Below, piece by piece: positions 1,005 to 7,074 of a stretch of 64,000 nucleotides of DNA. Made by a program: the position numbers and the translations under genes. Origin of the DNA: Oceanihabitans sp. 2_MG-2023 (GTDB lineage Bacteria; Bacteroidota; Bacteroidia; Flavobacteriales; Flavobacteriaceae); the NCBI RefSeq assembly GCF_030547245.1, contig NZ_JAUOQT010000010.1:1-64000 (forward strand), written 5' to 3'. Positions within the stretch are counted from its first letter, which is position 1. Every line of letters begins with the position of its first letter. The notes beneath the pieces are model-generated. The model saw nothing but the letters and a program-made list of their open reading frames with translations. It searched no databases and was not told the origin of the DNA.

Positions 1005-1787
1005 ATGACTAAAACAGCATTAATAACAGGAGCAGCATCTGGATTAGGCTATGAGTTAACTCTTTTATTAGCCAAAGACGCTTACAAATTGATATTAGTT
1101 GATATTAATGCAGTAAATCTAGCTAAAGTAAAAGATGAATTAGTACGTGGTTTTAAAGTAGAAGTAATAACGCTAGCTAAAGATTTAAGCCTTCCAAATA
1201 TTTCACAAGAAATTATAGACGATATAAATAACGAACCAATTGATGTGTTAATTAATAATGCAGGATTTGGTTTGTTTGGCTCTTTTGCTGAAACCAATTG
1301 GGAGCGAGAATCTGCTATGTTGCATGTGCATATAATGACCACAACACATTTAACTAAACTGGTTTTAGAGGGTATGGTAAAACGTAAATCGGGTAAAATA
1401 TTAAACATGTCTTCTCTTGCGGCTTTTCAACCAGGACCTTTAATGTCTATTTATTATGCTTCTAAAGGTTATATGCTTTCTTTTTCTGAAGCTATTGCAT
1501 GTGAACTAAAGGGAACAGGAGTTTCTGTAACCGCTTTATGTCCTGGGCCAACAAAAACGCATTTTCAAGAAACAGTTTCAGAAGATAGTAAAGAAAATAA
1601 AATCACTTTTAATATGGCTTCCGCCAAAGCAGTTGCTGCTTATGGTTATAAAGCCATGTTAAAAGGGAAACCTGTGGCAATACCTGGAGGTTTTAATAAA
1701 TTTCTTGCTACACTACCAAGGTTAATGCCTAGAAATGTAGCTGCTAATATTGTTAGAAAGATTCAAGAAAAAAACAGAGAAGATTAA
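1005..1787 (+). CDS. SDR family NAD(P)-dependent oxidoreductase
   Basis: This 260-residue protein is a classical short-chain dehydrogenase/reductase. It has the cofactor motif TGAASGLG at residues 8-15, NNAG at 84-87, a catalytic serine in MSS near 135-137 and Y150-x3-K154. The C-terminal part resembles the DltE/YqjQ-like group of uncharacterised SDRs. The substrate cannot be told from the sequence. It starts 28 nt after the repeat protein and its stop overlaps the stop of the convergent DUF1361 gene by 4 bp. Fold and general oxidoreductase activity are certain; the pathway is unknown. Confidence 0.9.
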   Translation: MTKTALITGAASGLGYELTLLLAKDAYKLILVDINAVNLAKVKDELVRGFKVEVITLAKDLSLPNISQEIIDDINNEPIDVLINNAGFGLFGSFAETNWERESAMLHVHIMTTTHLTKLVLEGMVKRKSGKILNMSSLAAFQPGPLMSIYYASKGYMLSFSEAIACELKGTGVSVTALCPGPTKTHFQETVSEDSKENKITFNMASAKAVAAYGYKAMLKGKPVAIPGGFNKFLATLPRLMPRNVAANIVRKIQEKNRED

Positions 1788-2470
1788 CTGTTTCCTGTTT
1801 TTTGAAAAACCTGAAACATACGAAAGCTAATGGCTAAAAAACAGCCAAATGTAAACGTAAATAACCAAACTTCTAAGTGTTGATTTGGCTGTATAACCAT
1901 GTGTAATATATCCTTAAAAAGGATAGAAGGGTGTTGTAAAATATCCCAAGAATTATAGCGTAAAAATCTACCCAAGTAAATACCAAAAGCAGTTAATAAA
2001 AGAATTGCATGCATAAGATAACTTACCTTGTTTTTACTAAAATAATTTTGCAATAATTTTTTTATATCTACCATACTTAAAAAGAATAGCATTAACCCAT
2101 TATAAGCAAAGGAAGTTACTAGTAAAACATCTAACCAAAAAAATGGGTTTTCACTAATTTTTAAATGTATTAGGTCTGTAATAATATAAGGCGCATTAGG
2201 TAAAAAGAGCAACCAAATACTAAACGCTATTGCAAGTTGAAATTTGTTTGTTTTTTCTCTGCTTTTTAAGTAGATTGTAATTGCATAAGGTATCACTGCA
2301 AGAAACAAGTTCCATACTAAAAATATGAAAAAATAAGTGTGTGTAATTTTTATTCTAACCATTAGTAAAAAGATACTTAAAAGCATAGAAGCACTAAGGA
2401 GTGAAATGACTTTGTATTGATTAAAGATATGGGATTTTAAATTATGCATTGTTTTGTGTTTTGTGTTCAA
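1784..2470 (-). CDS. DUF1361 family integral membrane protein
   Basis: A hydrophobic 228-residue protein with about six membrane segments. The stretches WNLFLAVIPY, LWLLFLPNAPYIITDLIHL and FFWLDVLLVTSFAYNG are hallmarks of the DUF1361 family, whose function is unknown. A second ATG eight codons in (2449) is an equally good start and would remove the overlap with the upstream gene's stop at 2442. It is the last gene of a minus-strand run of three small membrane-protein genes (3130 to 1784). Confidence 0.8.
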   Translation of the reverse strand: MNTKHKTMHNLKSHIFNQYKVISLLSASMLLSIFLLMVRIKITHTYFFIFLVWNLFLAVIPYAITIYLKSREKTNKFQLAIAFSIWLLFLPNAPYIITDLIHLKISENPFFWLDVLLVTSFAYNGLMLFFLSMVDIKKLLQNYFSKNKVSYLMHAILLLTAFGIYLGRFLRYNSWDILQHPSILFKDILHMVIQPNQHLEVWLFTFTFGCFLAISFRMFQVFQKTGNS

Positions 2471-2819
2471 AAATTAGAATGGTAATAATACCTAATGTGT
2501 AAGCGATTAGATCTTGAATACTAAAAGTACTTCCTAAAATAATTTTAGCTACTGTGTTGTTTTGAAGCTTTAATACTTCTAAAAAATGGGTGAGTTGTAA
2601 AAACTCGATACCATAAGCAATGATAAAAACTGCTATTGCGATATAAAATGGTTTTGTTTTTATAACACTTTTAAACATACAATAGAGTAGTATAACGACA
2701 AGGTAATCGCCAAAAGTATGTCGGATAAAACCATCTTTTAAAAAGGTTGCAATAAAAGCTTCTACTATAAATAGTACAATGGCTGCTATGCTGTAGTTTT
2801 TGTTACATTGAAATTTCAT
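2442..2819 (-). CDS. DUF2809 family membrane protein
   Basis: A 125-residue protein with about four membrane segments. The motifs HTFGDYLVVILLY, YGIEFLQL and FSIQDLIAYTLGI match the DUF2809 family, of unknown function. The start at 2819 was chosen because it lies directly after the upstream stop codon (2822-2824), fitting coupled translation; an earlier ATG at 2852 would overlap the upstream gene by 31 bp. The 3' end overlaps the start of the DUF1361 gene. DUF2809 and DUF1361 genes adjacent on one transcript may share a job in the membrane, but this is inference. Confidence 0.75.
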   Translation of the reverse strand: MKFQCNKNYSIAAIVLFIVEAFIATFLKDGFIRHTFGDYLVVILLYCMFKSVIKTKPFYIAIAVFIIAYGIEFLQLTHFLEVLKLQNNTVAKIILGSTFSIQDLIAYTLGIITILIFEHKTQNNA

Positions 2820-2821
2820 AA

Positions 2822-3130
2822 TTAAAAATGCTTGCTTAAATCTAAAGACCATAAAACTAAAAAGAAGTAACCTATTGCTATTGGTATGTTTAATAATAAG
2901 ATAGCGCAGGTTTTTAGTATTTCGATTCTAAATTTAGGTTTTACAAAAGCGGAAATAATTAGAATAACTAATAAAATAAGGTTTATCCAAAATGCTATTA
3001 GTATAAAACCGAATCCGATTTGTTCTAGGTTTTTTAGATTATCAAAATATAGGTAAACGGCTAATAATACTGTTCCTATAATAAAGCTGGTTGCTGCTGT
3101 TATTTTACTGGTTAAAATTATATTTTTCAT
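2822..3130 (-). CDS. Small hypothetical membrane protein, three TM segments
   Basis: A 102-residue protein with three strongly hydrophobic segments (about residues 10-27, 39-62 and 73-95) separated by short charged loops. No family is recognised. It is first in the transcript with the DUF2809 and DUF1361 genes, spaced 2 nt from the former. The upstream spacer holds one copy of a dispersed repeat (3145-3279). Confidence 0.6.
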   Translation of the reverse strand: MKNIILTSKITAATSFIIGTVLLAVYLYFDNLKNLEQIGFGFILIAFWINLILLVILIISAFVKPKFRIEILKTCAILLLNIPIAIGYFFLVLWSLDLSKHF

Positions 3131-3325: not shown

Positions 3326-4702
3326 TTATCCGTTTGTCCAATCTATTTTTCTAGACACAAACATAACAGTAGCTAGGATGAGGAATAAACCAATGCTACC
3401 AACTAATAATGCGTAGTTTTCTAATTGAATGATTACGTAAATAAAGGTGTAAAGTGCTGTGAGTGATACCCCGATAAAAATGGGGAATTTAAAGTTTTTT
3501 AGTATGGATTTGGAATAGAGTGTGATGAGTACAATTACCGAAATACCTGCAATAAGATAGGCTTTTAAAAAGTTACTGTGCTCGGAAATAGAAACGAGTA
3601 AGGTATAAAACATGGTGAGTGCAATACCAATCATTAAATATTGAAAAGGGTGAATGTTTATTTTGCTTAAGCTTTGTATAAGGAAGAAAATGAGGAAGGT
3701 TAAACCAATAACTAGAAAACCGTATTTTGCAGAGCGTTCGGATTTTTGATACTCGTCTACCATGACCATAAATTTGGTGCCAAAAGCAAAGCTGTTGAGG
3801 TTTGGTATTTTGTTAAGGTGTTGTTGCGAGAAAGCTCTATTAATGTGAAGTATTTTCCAGTCTGCTGTAAATCCGTTTTTGGTAATTTCTTTGGTTTCGT
3901 CGTCTGGTAAATAGTTGCCAATAAAGCTTGGATCTGCCCAATTAGAAGTCATGCTCATGGTTGTGGTTTTACCAATAGGGATTAATTCTATTTGCTTGCT
4001 ACCATTAAAAGCCATTGTAATATTAAAATTAGAATTCCTTGTTTCGGTAATATCTTCGGTTTTTATAAATCCAGATTCTAATACGTCTAGACGATTGTGG
4101 TTATTATTGTTGGTGTCATTAAAATTGGTTTGAAAAGAATAGGTATTGTTGTTTAGTTTTAAAAGCATTTCACTTTTAATACCTTTTAGGTTAGATGTTT
4201 TTATGATTACGCTTGCTTTGTCCCAAATAATGTCTTCTTTTTTTATTCCTTTTGAAGAAAGGTCTGTAGGGATAAAATACCCTGAAAAATCCATGTTGGT
4301 TGTAAAAACAGCAGATTCGAAGTTACCTCTGTTTAAGGTTTTAGAATTTACTGAAGCTTTAGTATCTAGATTTTCGGGAAAGATATATGCATAATTAATA
4401 TGTGTTTGGGTTTCTTTAAAGTAGGTTTTTGTCTTTTCGTTATAGGTTTTTGTTTCGCTATAAGTTTTATAAGGGATCTTTAAAATGGGACCATAGACTA
4501 AAACATGATTCCCCCATTTTTGGTTGATTTCGTTTACTACATCCTGTTGCCTAAATGCACGTTCTTTTATTAAGCTTTCTATAAACGATAATGGAACAAG
4601 TAATATTAAGGTTAAAAAACCTATCATAAGCATTCTTGCAGTTATAGATGTTTTTAGCCAATTGGTGAATCTGTTTGTATTATGTTTTTGTATTTCTTCC
4701 AT
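3326..4702 (-). CDS. creD: CreD family inner-membrane protein
   Basis: A 458-residue protein typical of CreD: an N-terminal membrane helix (about residues 23-45), a large extracytoplasmic domain, and a cluster of about five or six helices from residue 330 to the C-terminus. The opening segment with the LIxER...RQQDVVxEI pattern and WGNxxxxxGPIxxIPY is characteristic of the family. In enterobacteria creD is the main target of the CreBC two-component system and affects cell-envelope integrity; the biochemical role is unknown. No CreBC genes are near. Here it lies 12 nt after a Coq4-like gene, and the pair starts at a palindromic operator (5220-5238). Confidence 0.9.
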   Translation of the reverse strand: MEEIQKHNTNRFTNWLKTSITARMLMIGFLTLILLVPLSFIESLIKERAFRQQDVVNEINQKWGNHVLVYGPILKIPYKTYSETKTYNEKTKTYFKETQTHINYAYIFPENLDTKASVNSKTLNRGNFESAVFTTNMDFSGYFIPTDLSSKGIKKEDIIWDKASVIIKTSNLKGIKSEMLLKLNNNTYSFQTNFNDTNNNNHNRLDVLESGFIKTEDITETRNSNFNITMAFNGSKQIELIPIGKTTTMSMTSNWADPSFIGNYLPDDETKEITKNGFTADWKILHINRAFSQQHLNKIPNLNSFAFGTKFMVMVDEYQKSERSAKYGFLVIGLTFLIFFLIQSLSKINIHPFQYLMIGIALTMFYTLLVSISEHSNFLKAYLIAGISVIVLITLYSKSILKNFKFPIFIGVSLTALYTFIYVIIQLENYALLVGSIGLFLILATVMFVSRKIDWTNG

Positions 4703-4714
4703 AGTAAAAGTGTT

Positions 4715-5209
4715 TTAGATTTTTGTTGTTAATAGAATGTCTAATTGTTGTTTCGAAAAAATGCTCATTCTAAATGAATGTATGTTTACTTGTAATAGTT
4801 TTTTATAATCATATTGATGAAAAGAATTTGCGTTTTTACCTATTAAGTAAGACTTGTAATAGTACTTGTAATACTCTGGGAGAATAATTACGCCTAATAC
4901 AATTGCTCCAAATAAATAAGGACTTCTTTTTCCGTTTCCAAAGCATAAACATTGTAGTGCAATCTCGTCTTCTACTTTGGAGCCAAACCCAGTTAAAGTA
5001 TGGTAGGCATCATGTCTTTCTACTTTAGAAATTAATTCGAAGTTGTTTTTATCTAAAAATTCGCCAAGATGTTTACCTAGAGAAGCCTCTGGATAGGTTA
5101 AAAGCTCTGCTTTGTAAATTCCCCATGGTTGATGCTTTTTGAATATGTTGGTATATATTTTTTGAGATTTTTCAAAAAGCCATTCGATAAGTTGTTTTCT
5201 TTTTTTCAT
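4715..5209 (-). CDS. Coq4-like protein
   Basis: A 164-residue soluble-looking protein. Residues H66, D67, H70 and E82 form HDxxH-x11-E with the following LTGFG, the zinc-ligand signature of the Coq4 family, which in ubiquinone-making organisms is needed for assembly or oxidative decarboxylation in quinone synthesis. Bacteroidota normally make menaquinone, so a Coq4-like role here is not obvious. Length is somewhat shorter than eukaryotic Coq4. It is the first gene of the creD transcript and starts 10 nt from a 19-bp palindrome, so it is probably controlled by the winged-helix regulator encoded just upstream. Confidence 0.65.
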   Translation of the reverse strand: MKKRKQLIEWLFEKSQKIYTNIFKKHQPWGIYKAELLTYPEASLGKHLGEFLDKNNFELISKVERHDAYHTLTGFGSKVEDEIALQCLCFGNGKRSPYLFGAIVLGVIILPEYYKYYYKSYLIGKNANSFHQYDYKKLLQVNIHSFRMSIFSKQQLDILLTTKI

Positions 5210-5219
5210 AAATATAAAG

Positions 5220-5238
5220 TACTTTGAATTTCAAAGTA
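5220..5238 (-). promoter_or_regulatory. Palindromic operator before the Coq4-like/creD operon
   Basis: TACTTTGAATTTCAAAGTA is a perfect 19-bp inverted repeat (nine-base arms, one central base). It ends 10 nt before the start codon at 5209. Its TACTTTG half resembles a -7 promoter element, so binding would block transcription. A near-identical palindrome lies at 6994-7012. Confidence 0.7.
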
Positions 5239-5279
5239 AAAGATTAAAAAAATATTTCTATCCCTTGCAAGGAAGGAGT

Positions 5280-5573
5280 TTATTGTTTGTTAATTAATTT
5301 TTCAAGCGCTTCAATATGTTTTTTAAATGCAGCTCTACCAAGATTTGTTGTTGCATATCGTGTGTTTGGTTTTCGGCCAATAAATTGTTTTTCTACTGTA
5401 ATATATGCTACTTTTTCAAGTGCTTTGGTGTGACTTGCTAAATTACCATCGGTAACTTCTAGTAGCTCTTTAAGCATTTTAAAATCGGCATATTCGTTAA
5501 CCATTAAAATAGACATGATGCCTAATCTAATGCGATGATCGAAAGCTTTATTTATGTTGGTTATTATACTCAT
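5280..5573 (-). CDS. Winged-helix transcriptional regulator (HTH_34 type)
   Basis: A 97-residue single-domain DNA-binding protein of the MarR/ArsR-like winged-helix class. The order is FDHRIRLGIMSILM (first helix), FKMLKELLEVTDGNLASHTKALEK (recognition helix-turn-helix) and a beta-wing with FIGRKPNTRYATT, followed by a C-terminal helix for dimerisation. The ATG at 5573 is preferred over a TTG fifteen bases upstream. It is the last gene of the minus-strand operon that starts at 6986, and it lies just upstream of the Coq4-like/creD operon. Both operons carry the same palindrome, so it is the natural candidate for the protein that binds it and for autoregulation. Confidence 0.85.
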   Translation of the reverse strand: MSIITNINKAFDHRIRLGIMSILMVNEYADFKMLKELLEVTDGNLASHTKALEKVAYITVEKQFIGRKPNTRYATTNLGRAAFKKHIEALEKLINKQ

Positions 5574-5604
5574 ATATTTCCTGAACAAGCAGGAATTTTT
5601 TTAT

Positions 5605-6060
5605 TTAAGTTTGGTGTTGCTCTACTTTAGTAACCTTTCCATTTTCAAAATAGATATCTAATACATCTGGATCCATACTAAAAAGTCCGGGAACAAATCC
5701 AATGCCATAGGCAATGTGATTTTGGTTGTATGTGTAAAAATCTTTTCCTAATAATTCGATTATTTCTTCTTTTGTTTTTCCGATTAATATTTTACTTTCT
5801 ATGATGTCTTCAGACATTTTATACCTCTCCTCAATATTAGTTTCCCATTCTTGTTTATCGAAATCATTGGTAGGATAATACGAAATCGATAATATCCATA
5901 AATACATTAGTCCGATATAAATTATAGGACTTAATAATATAGCTGGTATTAGGGCTATTAATTTTCTGTTCTCGTCGTTTCCTAGATTAAATTTTTTTAA
6001 GCCCCACTTTGATAAAAAGTAGGAAGGAATAGCAAGAATTAGAATTATTAGAAAGCTCAT
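5605..6060 (-). CDS. Membrane-anchored protein with BamE/SmpA-like C-terminal domain
   Basis: A 151-residue protein with two N-terminal membrane helices (about residues 1-18 and 33-58) and a C-terminal soluble domain. The domain has the pattern IGKTKEEIIELLGKDF followed by DPDVLDIYFENGKVTKVE, which resembles the SmpA/OmlA (BamE) fold. It is the third gene of a tightly packed minus-strand operon, directly adjoining the EF-hand gene. The domain assignment is from motif shape only, and the role is unknown. Confidence 0.6.
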   Translation of the reverse strand: MSFLIILILAIPSYFLSKWGLKKFNLGNDENRKLIALIPAILLSPIIYIGLMYLWILSISYYPTNDFDKQEWETNIEERYKMSEDIIESKILIGKTKEEIIELLGKDFYTYNQNHIAYGIGFVPGLFSMDPDVLDIYFENGKVTKVEQHQT

Positions 6061-6381
6061 CTATTGGTAATTAATTTCATTCGTGTCTATTGTTTTCATT
6101 TTCTTAAAAAGCACTGCAATAGCAAAGCAAATAAAACCAATAATTATCGCAACAGGAATTAATATTATAATTGCTTGCTTTGTTGTTTTTCGTTTTTCTT
6201 TTTGGATTAAATAGAATTCTGCTTGTTCAGACATTTCGTTGGCATCTATAGAGCCATTCTTGTCTATATCAAATTTTTCAAATTGCAGATGAAACTTTTG
6301 GTTGGAATAATACGTAAAGGTTACTCCAAGTACATATATCATTAAGGTAGCAATTAACCCTGTCTTTATTGTATTACTCAT
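6061..6381 (-). CDS. Small membrane protein with one EF-hand
   Basis: A 106-residue protein with an N-terminal membrane helix (residues 7-24), a soluble central part and a second helix (about 70-92). The central part holds a canonical EF-hand loop, DIDKNGSIDANE, at about residues 38-49, with the expected acidic ligands at loop positions 1, 3, 5 and 12, so calcium binding is likely. Topology suggests the loop is extracytoplasmic. The start overlaps the upstream stop by 4 bp (ATGA), indicating translational coupling with the first gene of the operon. Confidence 0.7.
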   Translation of the reverse strand: MSNTIKTGLIATLMIYVLGVTFTYYSNQKFHLQFEKFDIDKNGSIDANEMSEQAEFYLIQKEKRKTTKQAIIILIPVAIIIGFICFAIAVLFKKMKTIDTNEINYQ

Positions 6382-6986
6382 TTCTTATCGTATTTAATAT
6401 ACATTATAGTTCCGTAAACAATATGTAAAAACCCGAAGCCTATAACCCAAAGTATAAAGCCATAACCAGGAAACAGCGCGCAAATTAAACCTAAAATAAT
6501 TTCTATGAAACCTAAATACCTAATATCTCCAATACTATATTTGGATGCATTAACAAGTGCAAGACCATAAAAAATGAGCATTAAAGCCCCAGCTTGTCCA
6601 TATTTTTGTTGTGCTAAAATGATTAAAATATAAATACCTCCAGTAATTAGCGGAATTAAAAAGTTAAAGATTAAACGTTTTGAAGAGGTGTCCCAAATTT
6701 TTTCATTATTCTTTTTTGCTTTTCTAGTGGTTAAAAATATTGCAGTTGCAATACTAAAAAAAGCTATTAAGGCTAAAATAAGTAAGCAAGTTTTAAAGAC
6801 CCAACCATCTAAAAGTAATGTGCCATAGCTATGATTTATTACCAACCAATATGCAATAGTTGCACCAATTAGTGCGTAAATCCCAGCTAATATTCCTGAT
6901 AAGCCACTTAAAGAAATAAATCTTGAAGATTTATTCATTAGGTTTTTAATCTCACTAATGTCTTTTAAATAATCTTTAGCTTCCAT
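6378..6986 (-). CDS. Hypothetical multi-pass membrane protein, first gene of the HTH-regulated operon
   Basis: A 202-residue protein: a short amphipathic N-terminus (MEAKDYLKDISEIKNLMNKS) followed by about six membrane helices. The start at 6986 fits the palindrome 7 nt upstream; an upstream ATG at 7028 would place the operator inside the gene. I recall similar proteins beside HTH_34 regulators in other Bacteroidota but know no function. It overlaps the EF-hand gene by 4 bp and leads a four-gene operon that ends with the regulator. Confidence 0.7.
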   Translation of the reverse strand: MEAKDYLKDISEIKNLMNKSSRFISLSGLSGILAGIYALIGATIAYWLVINHSYGTLLLDGWVFKTCLLILALIAFFSIATAIFLTTRKAKKNNEKIWDTSSKRLIFNFLIPLITGGIYILIILAQQKYGQAGALMLIFYGLALVNASKYSIGDIRYLGFIEIILGLICALFPGYGFILWVIGFGFLHIVYGTIMYIKYDKK

Positions 6987-6993
6987 ATAAAAG

Positions 6994-7012
6994 TACTTTG
7001 AAATACAAAGTA
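6994..7012 (-). promoter_or_regulatory. Palindromic operator before the HTH-regulator operon
   Basis: TACTTTGAAATACAAAGTA is a 19-bp inverted repeat with one mismatched pair. It ends 7 nt before the start codon at 6986. It matches the palindrome at 5220-5238 in 17 of 19 positions, and both are followed toward the gene by ACTTT. It is placed to overlap the promoter. Confidence 0.7.
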
Positions 7013-7074
7013 AATAAAAATAAAGCAATGTTACAAGTTAAAAGTTTCCTAAATAAATTTTATTATTTTTAAGC

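Follow-up and report, generated by a model that had tools for sequence, protein, structure and literature searches.

Introduction

What controls the envelope genes, creD among them, that lie near the start of a contig of the flavobacterium Oceanihabitans sp. 2_MG-2023 (NZ_JAUOQT010000010.1, positions 1 to 64 000, here called the window)? An earlier note on this DNA described two 19 base pair (bp) palindromes, 10 and 7 nucleotides (nt) before two adjacent minus-strand operons, and proposed that a small winged-helix regulator, here called REG, could repress both. The positions were confirmed, as TACTTTGAATTTCAAAGTA at 5220–5238 lies 10 nt 5' of the ATG of a Coq4-like gene and TACTTTGAAATACAAAGTA at 6994–7012 lies 7 nt 5' of the ATG of the gene for M202, a membrane protein of 202 amino acids (aa). 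Our study suggests that REG probably binds a longer, 23 bp element and represses both the M202–REG operon and the envelope operon, with M202 as the best candidate for a sensor. The features on which this reading draws are as follows.

6990–7012, minus strand: site 1, a putative operator/promoter site of 23 bp, TACTTTG-N5-CAAAGTA-CTTT, before the M202–REG operon
5216–5238, minus strand: site 2, a putative operator of 23 bp, before the Coq4-like/CreD operon
7006–7013, minus strand: TTACTTTG, a −7-type box (consensus TAnnTTTG) within site 1
7034–7036, minus strand: TTG at the −33 position of the operon 1 promoter
5246–5252, minus strand: T-tract of 7 T upstream of site 2
6378–6986, minus strand: M202, a 202 aa membrane protein with an N-terminal helix and six long helices; candidate sensor
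5280–5573, minus strand: REG, an HTH_34 winged-helix regulator, 97 aa from its ATG
4715–5209, minus strand: Coq4-like protein with the motif HDxxHx11E (PF05019, 32.8 bits, cut-off 22.9, E 5.4e-8)
3326–4702, minus strand: CreD inner membrane protein (PF06123, 481 bits, E 3.5e-144; NF008712, 470 bits)

Three of the gene identities first proposed were borne out: an HTH_34-type regulator ends the first operon (PF13601, 101.7 bits, cut-off 27, E 2.5e-29, profile positions 1–80 of 80), and the Coq4-like protein and CreD of the second both exceed their Pfam cut-offs.

The two sites and their conservation within the family

The exact pattern TACTTTG-N5-CAAAGTA occurred only at these two places in the 3.69-Mb genome, likewise when its centre was confined to A/T, and no exact copy was found away from the locus. 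The earlier note had named scatter of the motif through the genome as a reason to abandon its proposal. For exact copies this was rejected, since the pattern is unique to two places here and was present in 4 of 154 family genomes counted as REG-negative (2.6 %), which is not above the 15 of 298 (5 %) found with the pattern read backwards, the control used for motif scans. At looser settings there was no excess over this control genome-wide (11 matches against 9 with ≤2 mismatches; 194 against 167 with ≤3), and the 5 matches with ≤3 mismatches in the window were unremarkable beside the 2.4 expected. The next-best copy in this genome of the longer motif introduced below has 1 mismatch and lies within a coding frame (C26:57318).

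REG orthologues were called at E≤1e-30, giving 144 genomes of the family (E≤1e-10 matched 153 of 299). Loci were read in 141 of these, three genomes (G079, G202 and G278) being left out and the same region of the window itself counting as the 141st locus beside 140 from other REG-positive genomes. Site 1 (19 bp core, ≤1 mismatch) preceded REG in 137 of the 141 loci, site 2 followed it in 130 and both were present in 126, so that the sites are conserved before orthologous operons. The predicted co-occurrence with HTH_34 was also seen genome-wide, where 298 genomes were compared: the exact site was found in 121 of 144 REG-positive genomes versus the 4 of 154 others, 8 of which had a weak REG-like match and were counted as negative. 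The loci of 100 relatives contained 112 occurrences of the exact palindrome and none of 20 shuffled heptamer palindromes (18 distinct).

M202 was present in 140 of the 141 family loci. When the 80 genomes nearest by M202 were drawn (the best 80 of at least 584 matches, including Winogradskyella, Lacinutrix, Flavobacterium, Cellulophaga and Aquimarina), REG adjoined M202 in all 80; this set overlaps the family genomes in part, with some strains shared and one contig matching G226. Site 1 was exact in 74 of them, near-exact in 5 and absent in 1 (L282), and site 2 was exact in 70, near-exact in 3 and absent in 5 of the 78 that could be tested. By these comparisons the element tracks REG and M202 and is conserved over the family.

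Extent and position of the element

Conservation did not stop at the 19 bp originally reported. It extends 3' by CTTT (5216–5219 and 6990–6993), which is 95–100 % conserved in 137 site-1 and 132 site-2 copies, and therefore the element is one of 23 bp. It can be written T(T/A)ACTTTG-N5-(C/A)AAAGTACTTT, or T(T/A)ACTTTG-N5-CAAAGTACTTT in family copies, and it holds three half-sites (ACTTT, AAAGT and ACTTT), the last two of which make the palindrome AAAGTACTTT. Base −1 is T in 100 % of 137 site-1 copies and base 1 is T or A.

Overlap with the −7 region had been predicted, and the left part of site 1 does fit the flavobacterial sigma-A −7 box TAnnTTTG, which is placed at −12 to −5 (PMC9723704). 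If so, transcription would start near base 12, and in the window the leader from site 1 would be about 15 nt long. Site 1 shares T(T/A)ACTTTG with this consensus at the −7 place, and to it the element adds a near-invariant AC and the right half CAAAGTACTTT (PMC9723704). Bases 2 and 3, which are free in TAnnTTTG, are A in 98–100 % and C in 100 % of copies in both sites, so that more than a sigma factor must constrain them, and it seems that something else reads this DNA as well.

The two sites differ upstream. TTG at the place of the −33 promoter consensus was found in 75 of 128 site-1 copies, versus a background of 11 %, and in 14 of 20 copies lying away from the locus, which are described below. 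A run of ≥6 T at about −18 to −6 marked 95 of 111 in-locus site-2 copies, where the background was 1.5 %; it was rarer at site 1 (7 of 128 copies) and away from the locus (6 of 20). A terminator reading of this T-tract was rejected, as the preceding 40 nt showed no hairpin signal (mean z −0.12; minimum free energy ≤−6 in 9 of 95), with shuffles that kept single-base content only.

Spread beyond the family

The earlier note had pictured a local regulon of two operons. Instead, our analysis found it spread across the phylum and with members elsewhere in the genomes. M202 was matched in 125 of 395 phylum genomes (118 strongly, 7 weakly), covering 62 of 171 genera. The longer motif ACTTTG-N6-AAAGTACTTT, searched in 390 genomes, was found in 112 of them at 194 sites, versus 4 of 390 for the reversed control, and it was present in 99 of 117 genomes with a strong M202 match versus 13 of the remaining 273 (Fisher test, p 2e-58, uncorrected for relatedness). 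In two genomes where M202 was not strongly matched, a pair of copies of the motif lies about 950 bp apart (G430:C48:14808 and 15760; G630:C15:79451 and 80395); M202 may have been missed in these, because that spacing is usual for the locus.

Non-family loci were read at 54 places, from 48 distinct genomes, and REG lay ≤600 bp downstream of M202 in every one. ACTTTG-N5-(C/A)AAAG was found upstream of M202 in 41 of 47 distinct non-family loci, a remote homologue (L359) being set aside; two of the six loci without it (L332 and L335) have near copies starting GCTTTG. In some groups outside the family base 13, a base of the palindrome first described, is A rather than C (15 of the 41).

This change at base 13 was paired with a change in the wing of REG. 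The wing residue, usually G, is D or N in 15 of 15 A13 loci (L306–L359) versus 19 of 145 C13 loci (1 of 26 non-family, 18 of 119 family). Six duplicate loci and L359 had been set aside before this comparison. A further 21 family and 6 non-family loci were not counted, since the stretch scanned held no site, which for some of the 21 was a side effect of a query with extra N-terminal residues. The pairing hints at recognition of the site by REG, with the wing residue as a candidate specificity residue.

A model for the element, REG and M202

In the mechanism that we favour, a REG dimer, or a pair of dimers, would occupy T(T/A)ACTTTG-N5-(C/A)AAAGTACTTT and repress transcription. Since the −7 box lies within the element, which also reaches the first transcribed bases, a bound dimer would exclude RNA polymerase, and it is this position of the site that speaks for repression. 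REG would act as autorepressor of M202–REG through site 1, on the envelope operon through site 2 (the Coq4-like and CreD genes, possibly with those for a 102 aa protein, a DUF2809 protein and a DUF1361 protein) and, in other genomes, on unlinked genes bearing the same site. M202 would sense a disturbed envelope or membrane and release REG. The link of REG to the element has strong comparative evidence behind it; for sensing by M202, the constant pairing is the one observation from which we infer it. More tentatively, and with slightly more doubt than belief on our part, M202 and REG may form a membrane-to-DNA signalling pair over much of the Bacteroidota, in which the six-helix protein senses the state of the envelope, lipid or quinone and directly frees a mini winged-helix repressor from a near-invariant 23 bp operator. 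If true, this would be a phylum-level envelope-stress circuit that serves CreD-type genes as two-component systems do elsewhere, with an operator that travels with moving cargo.

Several points weigh against this model. Three half-sites are ill-suited to one simple dimer. The exact 19 bp site is absent from 23 of 144 REG-positive genomes, the exact longer motif is missing in 18 of 117 genomes with a strong M202 match, and 13 genomes have the motif without such a match. TTG stands at the −33 place in just 5 of 111 in-locus site-2 copies, with a T-tract instead, and the site-2 promoter may therefore function differently from that of site 1. The D/N wing residue also accompanies C13 in those 18 of 119 family loci. 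A tree of 80 of the 160 loci left (every non-family locus, every family locus with D/N and each fifth one of the remainder) showed just 4 changes at base 13, with 2 well-supported pairs, so that the wing/base-13 link is a hint and not a test. One off-locus site (L399) is followed by no clear gene.

Alternative explanations

The strongest competitor, which we regard as possible though on balance doubtful, is that REG represses but senses a small ligand itself, with M202 merely the most conserved cargo. Many regulators of MarR/ArsR fold sense small ligands, and REG has the fold of a stand-alone 1ub9/PadR/MarR type: its profile matches 1ub9 (PH1061) at E 7.7e-13, and 1ub9 is the closest structure by both profile and fold, followed by MarR-, PadR- and ArsR-type regulators. 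By Pfam it is not PadR (PF03551, 14.3 bits, below the cut-off of 27). A second, weaker HTH_34 match lies elsewhere in the genome (G000:C1:406895-407068; L039). M202, for its part, has no Pfam family above cut-off, and its fold search against the PDB gave no match with E≤0.001. Its model has a mean predicted local distance difference test (pLDDT) score of 84, falling to about 50 in the N-terminal 20 residues, a conserved stretch modelled as a low-confidence helix ahead of the six long ones. Against a ligand of its own stands the compact REG model (pLDDT 88), which has little beyond the winged helix and one C-terminal helix and so would seem to leave little room for a pocket; the start is most likely the ATG at 5573 (97 aa) rather than the TTG at 5588. 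Moreover, REG lies beside M202 in 54 of 54 non-family loci and 80 of 80 nearest genomes, whereas the other cargo varies.

It is unlikely that REG is instead an activator, if not everywhere then at site 2 and at the promoters away from the locus. The scarcity of the −33 TTG at site 2 and the conserved T-tract there could point to a promoter that is weak unaided. However, the element lies across the −7 box and start region, the classical position for a repressor. Besides its −7 box, site 1 often shows the −33 TTG, as do 14 of the 20 off-locus copies.

That a different DNA-binding protein uses the element, with REG just a neighbour, is less probable still. Binding of the element by REG is itself predicted from comparison, which leaves such a protein some room; but the element follows REG and M202 over the family and the phylum, and REG is the sole recognisable DNA-binding protein of the constant pair. 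Least credible is an RNA hairpin in the leader, for which a 7 bp stem and 5 nt loop can be drawn just 5' of the start codon, and which was rejected because outer pairs are lost without compensation (the 1/19 pair is broken in this way, with 38 of 143 and 56 of 134 unpaired), because G7 is constant even where A replaces C13 (15 of 41 non-family loci), and because the left arm would go untranscribed if bases −1 to 7 form a −7 box.

Genes associated with the element

Repression by REG at site 2 would bear on a variable set of envelope genes. In the window three further genes follow CreD as possible cargo.

2822–3130, minus strand: 102 aa membrane protein, after a gap of about 195 nt from CreD; no Pfam family
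2442–2852, minus strand: DUF2809 membrane protein (PF10990, 93.5 bits)
1784–2470, minus strand: DUF1361 membrane protein (PF07099, 151.7 bits)

Gene calling in the loci was heuristic and misses genes (REG in many loci, for example), so the cargo counts are lower bounds; each cluster took its family name from one member. CreD was found in 83 and a Coq4-like protein in 53 of the 141 family loci. Downstream of site 2, in 130 loci (L040–L179), there were 77 with CreD, 37 with DUF4153, 49 with Coq4-like, 65 with DUF1361-type, 66 with DUF2809-type and 25 with DUF218 proteins, the last presumably of SanA type. Small membrane proteins (cluster M98) occupied the position of the 102 aa protein in 43 of the 130. 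CreD and DUF4153 never occurred together in operon 2 (0 of 130), and thus they look like alternatives, as if one replaces the other. By genome, CreD was present in 84 of 144 with REG versus 7 of 154 others in the family, and the CreD of these 7 has 40–41 % identity to that of the window.

HDxxHx11E, which we take to be the Coq4 metal motif, was kept in 48 of 49 operon-2 Coq4-like homologues (E or D being allowed at the final place), and this suggests that the metal site of these proteins is a working one. Menaquinone is the quinone of this group of organisms.

Copies of the element away from the locus were read at 20 sites, a selection among the matches listed, with GC-rich-centre copies and several others left aside; six further loci were inspected beside them, one of which (L380) is the same site as L390. 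The next gene was Coq4-like at two sites (L391 and L394; 21.6 and 22.2 bits, just under the PF05019 cut-off of 22.9), CreD at one (L400), exosortase K at one (L408), an XrtN-system VIT protein at one (L396), an M96-type membrane protein at six (by eye) and a DoxX-like protein at one (at cut-off). A 110 aa membrane family followed three of the 20 (by eye, one of them 201 nt away), and a YiiX-type papain-like enzyme followed four, all in genome group g128 (L390 by profile; L392, L393 and L395 alike by eye). As Coq4-like, CreD, M96 and exosortase-K-like genes also occur inside the locus, cargo found elsewhere carries the element with it, indicating a putative regulon in trans. At L408 the exosortase K gene and one for an MSEP-CTERM protein lie directly behind the off-locus copy, and exosortase-K-like genes were seen in operon 2 of L143, L147 and L157.

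Comparison with known systems

A membrane protein encoded beside a stand-alone winged helix-turn-helix (wHTH) protein has been described as the HAAS–PadR-like wHTH dyad, a proposed alternative to two-component systems for membrane stress (PMC11237479). The likeness is in this arrangement, which 140 of the 141 family loci showed, as did all 48 distinct non-family loci and all 80 nearest genomes. The resemblance is in plan and not in sequence, as REG is HTH_34 and not PadR, and the HAAS domain is outlined as a three-helix fold (PMC11237479), whereas M202 is modelled with one low-confidence N-terminal helix and then six long helices. M202 gave no Pfam match to DUF1700, DUF1129 or DUF1048 at E≤1, a search in which the HMMER filters drop most matches above 0.1. 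The PadR-type LadR, LstR and LltR of Listeria are also small wHTH repressors, thought to respond to envelope-acting compounds, and the main targets of LstR and LltR are the operons to which they themselves belong and in which transmembrane proteins are encoded (PMC6624303). They share with REG this putative control of their own membrane protein operons, but belong to another family and phylum, and the abstract describes no operator shared across a phylum (PMC6624303).

CreD itself is known from the CreBC two-component system, which controls creD, and loss of creD harms the envelope in Stenotrophomonas maltophilia (PMC4689548). Here, too, creD appears to be under control, but the putative regulator is a wHTH protein of one-component type that has a membrane partner, and CreD is a single cargo among several (cf. 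PMC4689548). No gene of CreB/CreC type was found among the window genes tested by profile, the rest of the genome not having been searched for them. The closest solved structure to REG, PH1061 of Pyrococcus horikoshii (1ub9), is named in its entry as a transcriptional regulator homologue/hypothetical protein, and we know of no operator or membrane partner for it.

No description of this regulon was found in the literature searched, which holds few subscription journals and no supplements and in which 'cred' also matches 'credit' and 'CRediT'. The same literature yielded no mention of HTH_34 or PF13601, and the letters of the element matched only papers on human genes, by title. What appears to be new is the combination of a putative wHTH repressor of one-component type, a membrane protein that constantly accompanies it and an operator common to much of a phylum in which, to our knowledge, few regulons have been worked out. 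One candidate operator, near letter-identical in the family and recognisable well beyond it, points to a regulator, to its candidate sensor and to a group of envelope genes that have received little study (CreD, DUF4153, DUF1361, DUF2809, Coq4-like, SanA-type DUF218, exosortase K and YiiX). As it names all three, the function of these genes, and that of CreD outside CreBC, becomes directly testable.

Other genes of the locus

Two further membrane protein genes lie between M202 and REG in the window.

6061–6381, minus strand: 106 aa membrane protein with one EF-hand-like loop, a lineage-specific passenger
5605–6060, minus strand: 151 aa membrane protein, a passenger

The earlier note had placed CreD under REG together with the EF-hand protein and a quinone-related protein. 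The Coq4-like protein and CreD held up as frequent, if variable, cargo; the EF-hand protein and the 151 aa protein proved to be rare passengers, present in 4 and 2 of the 141 loci respectively, in contrast to the near-constant M202. The EF-hand of the 106 aa protein scored 19.8 bits, where the Pfam cut-off is 25, and its loop, DKNGSIDANE, is canonical-looking.

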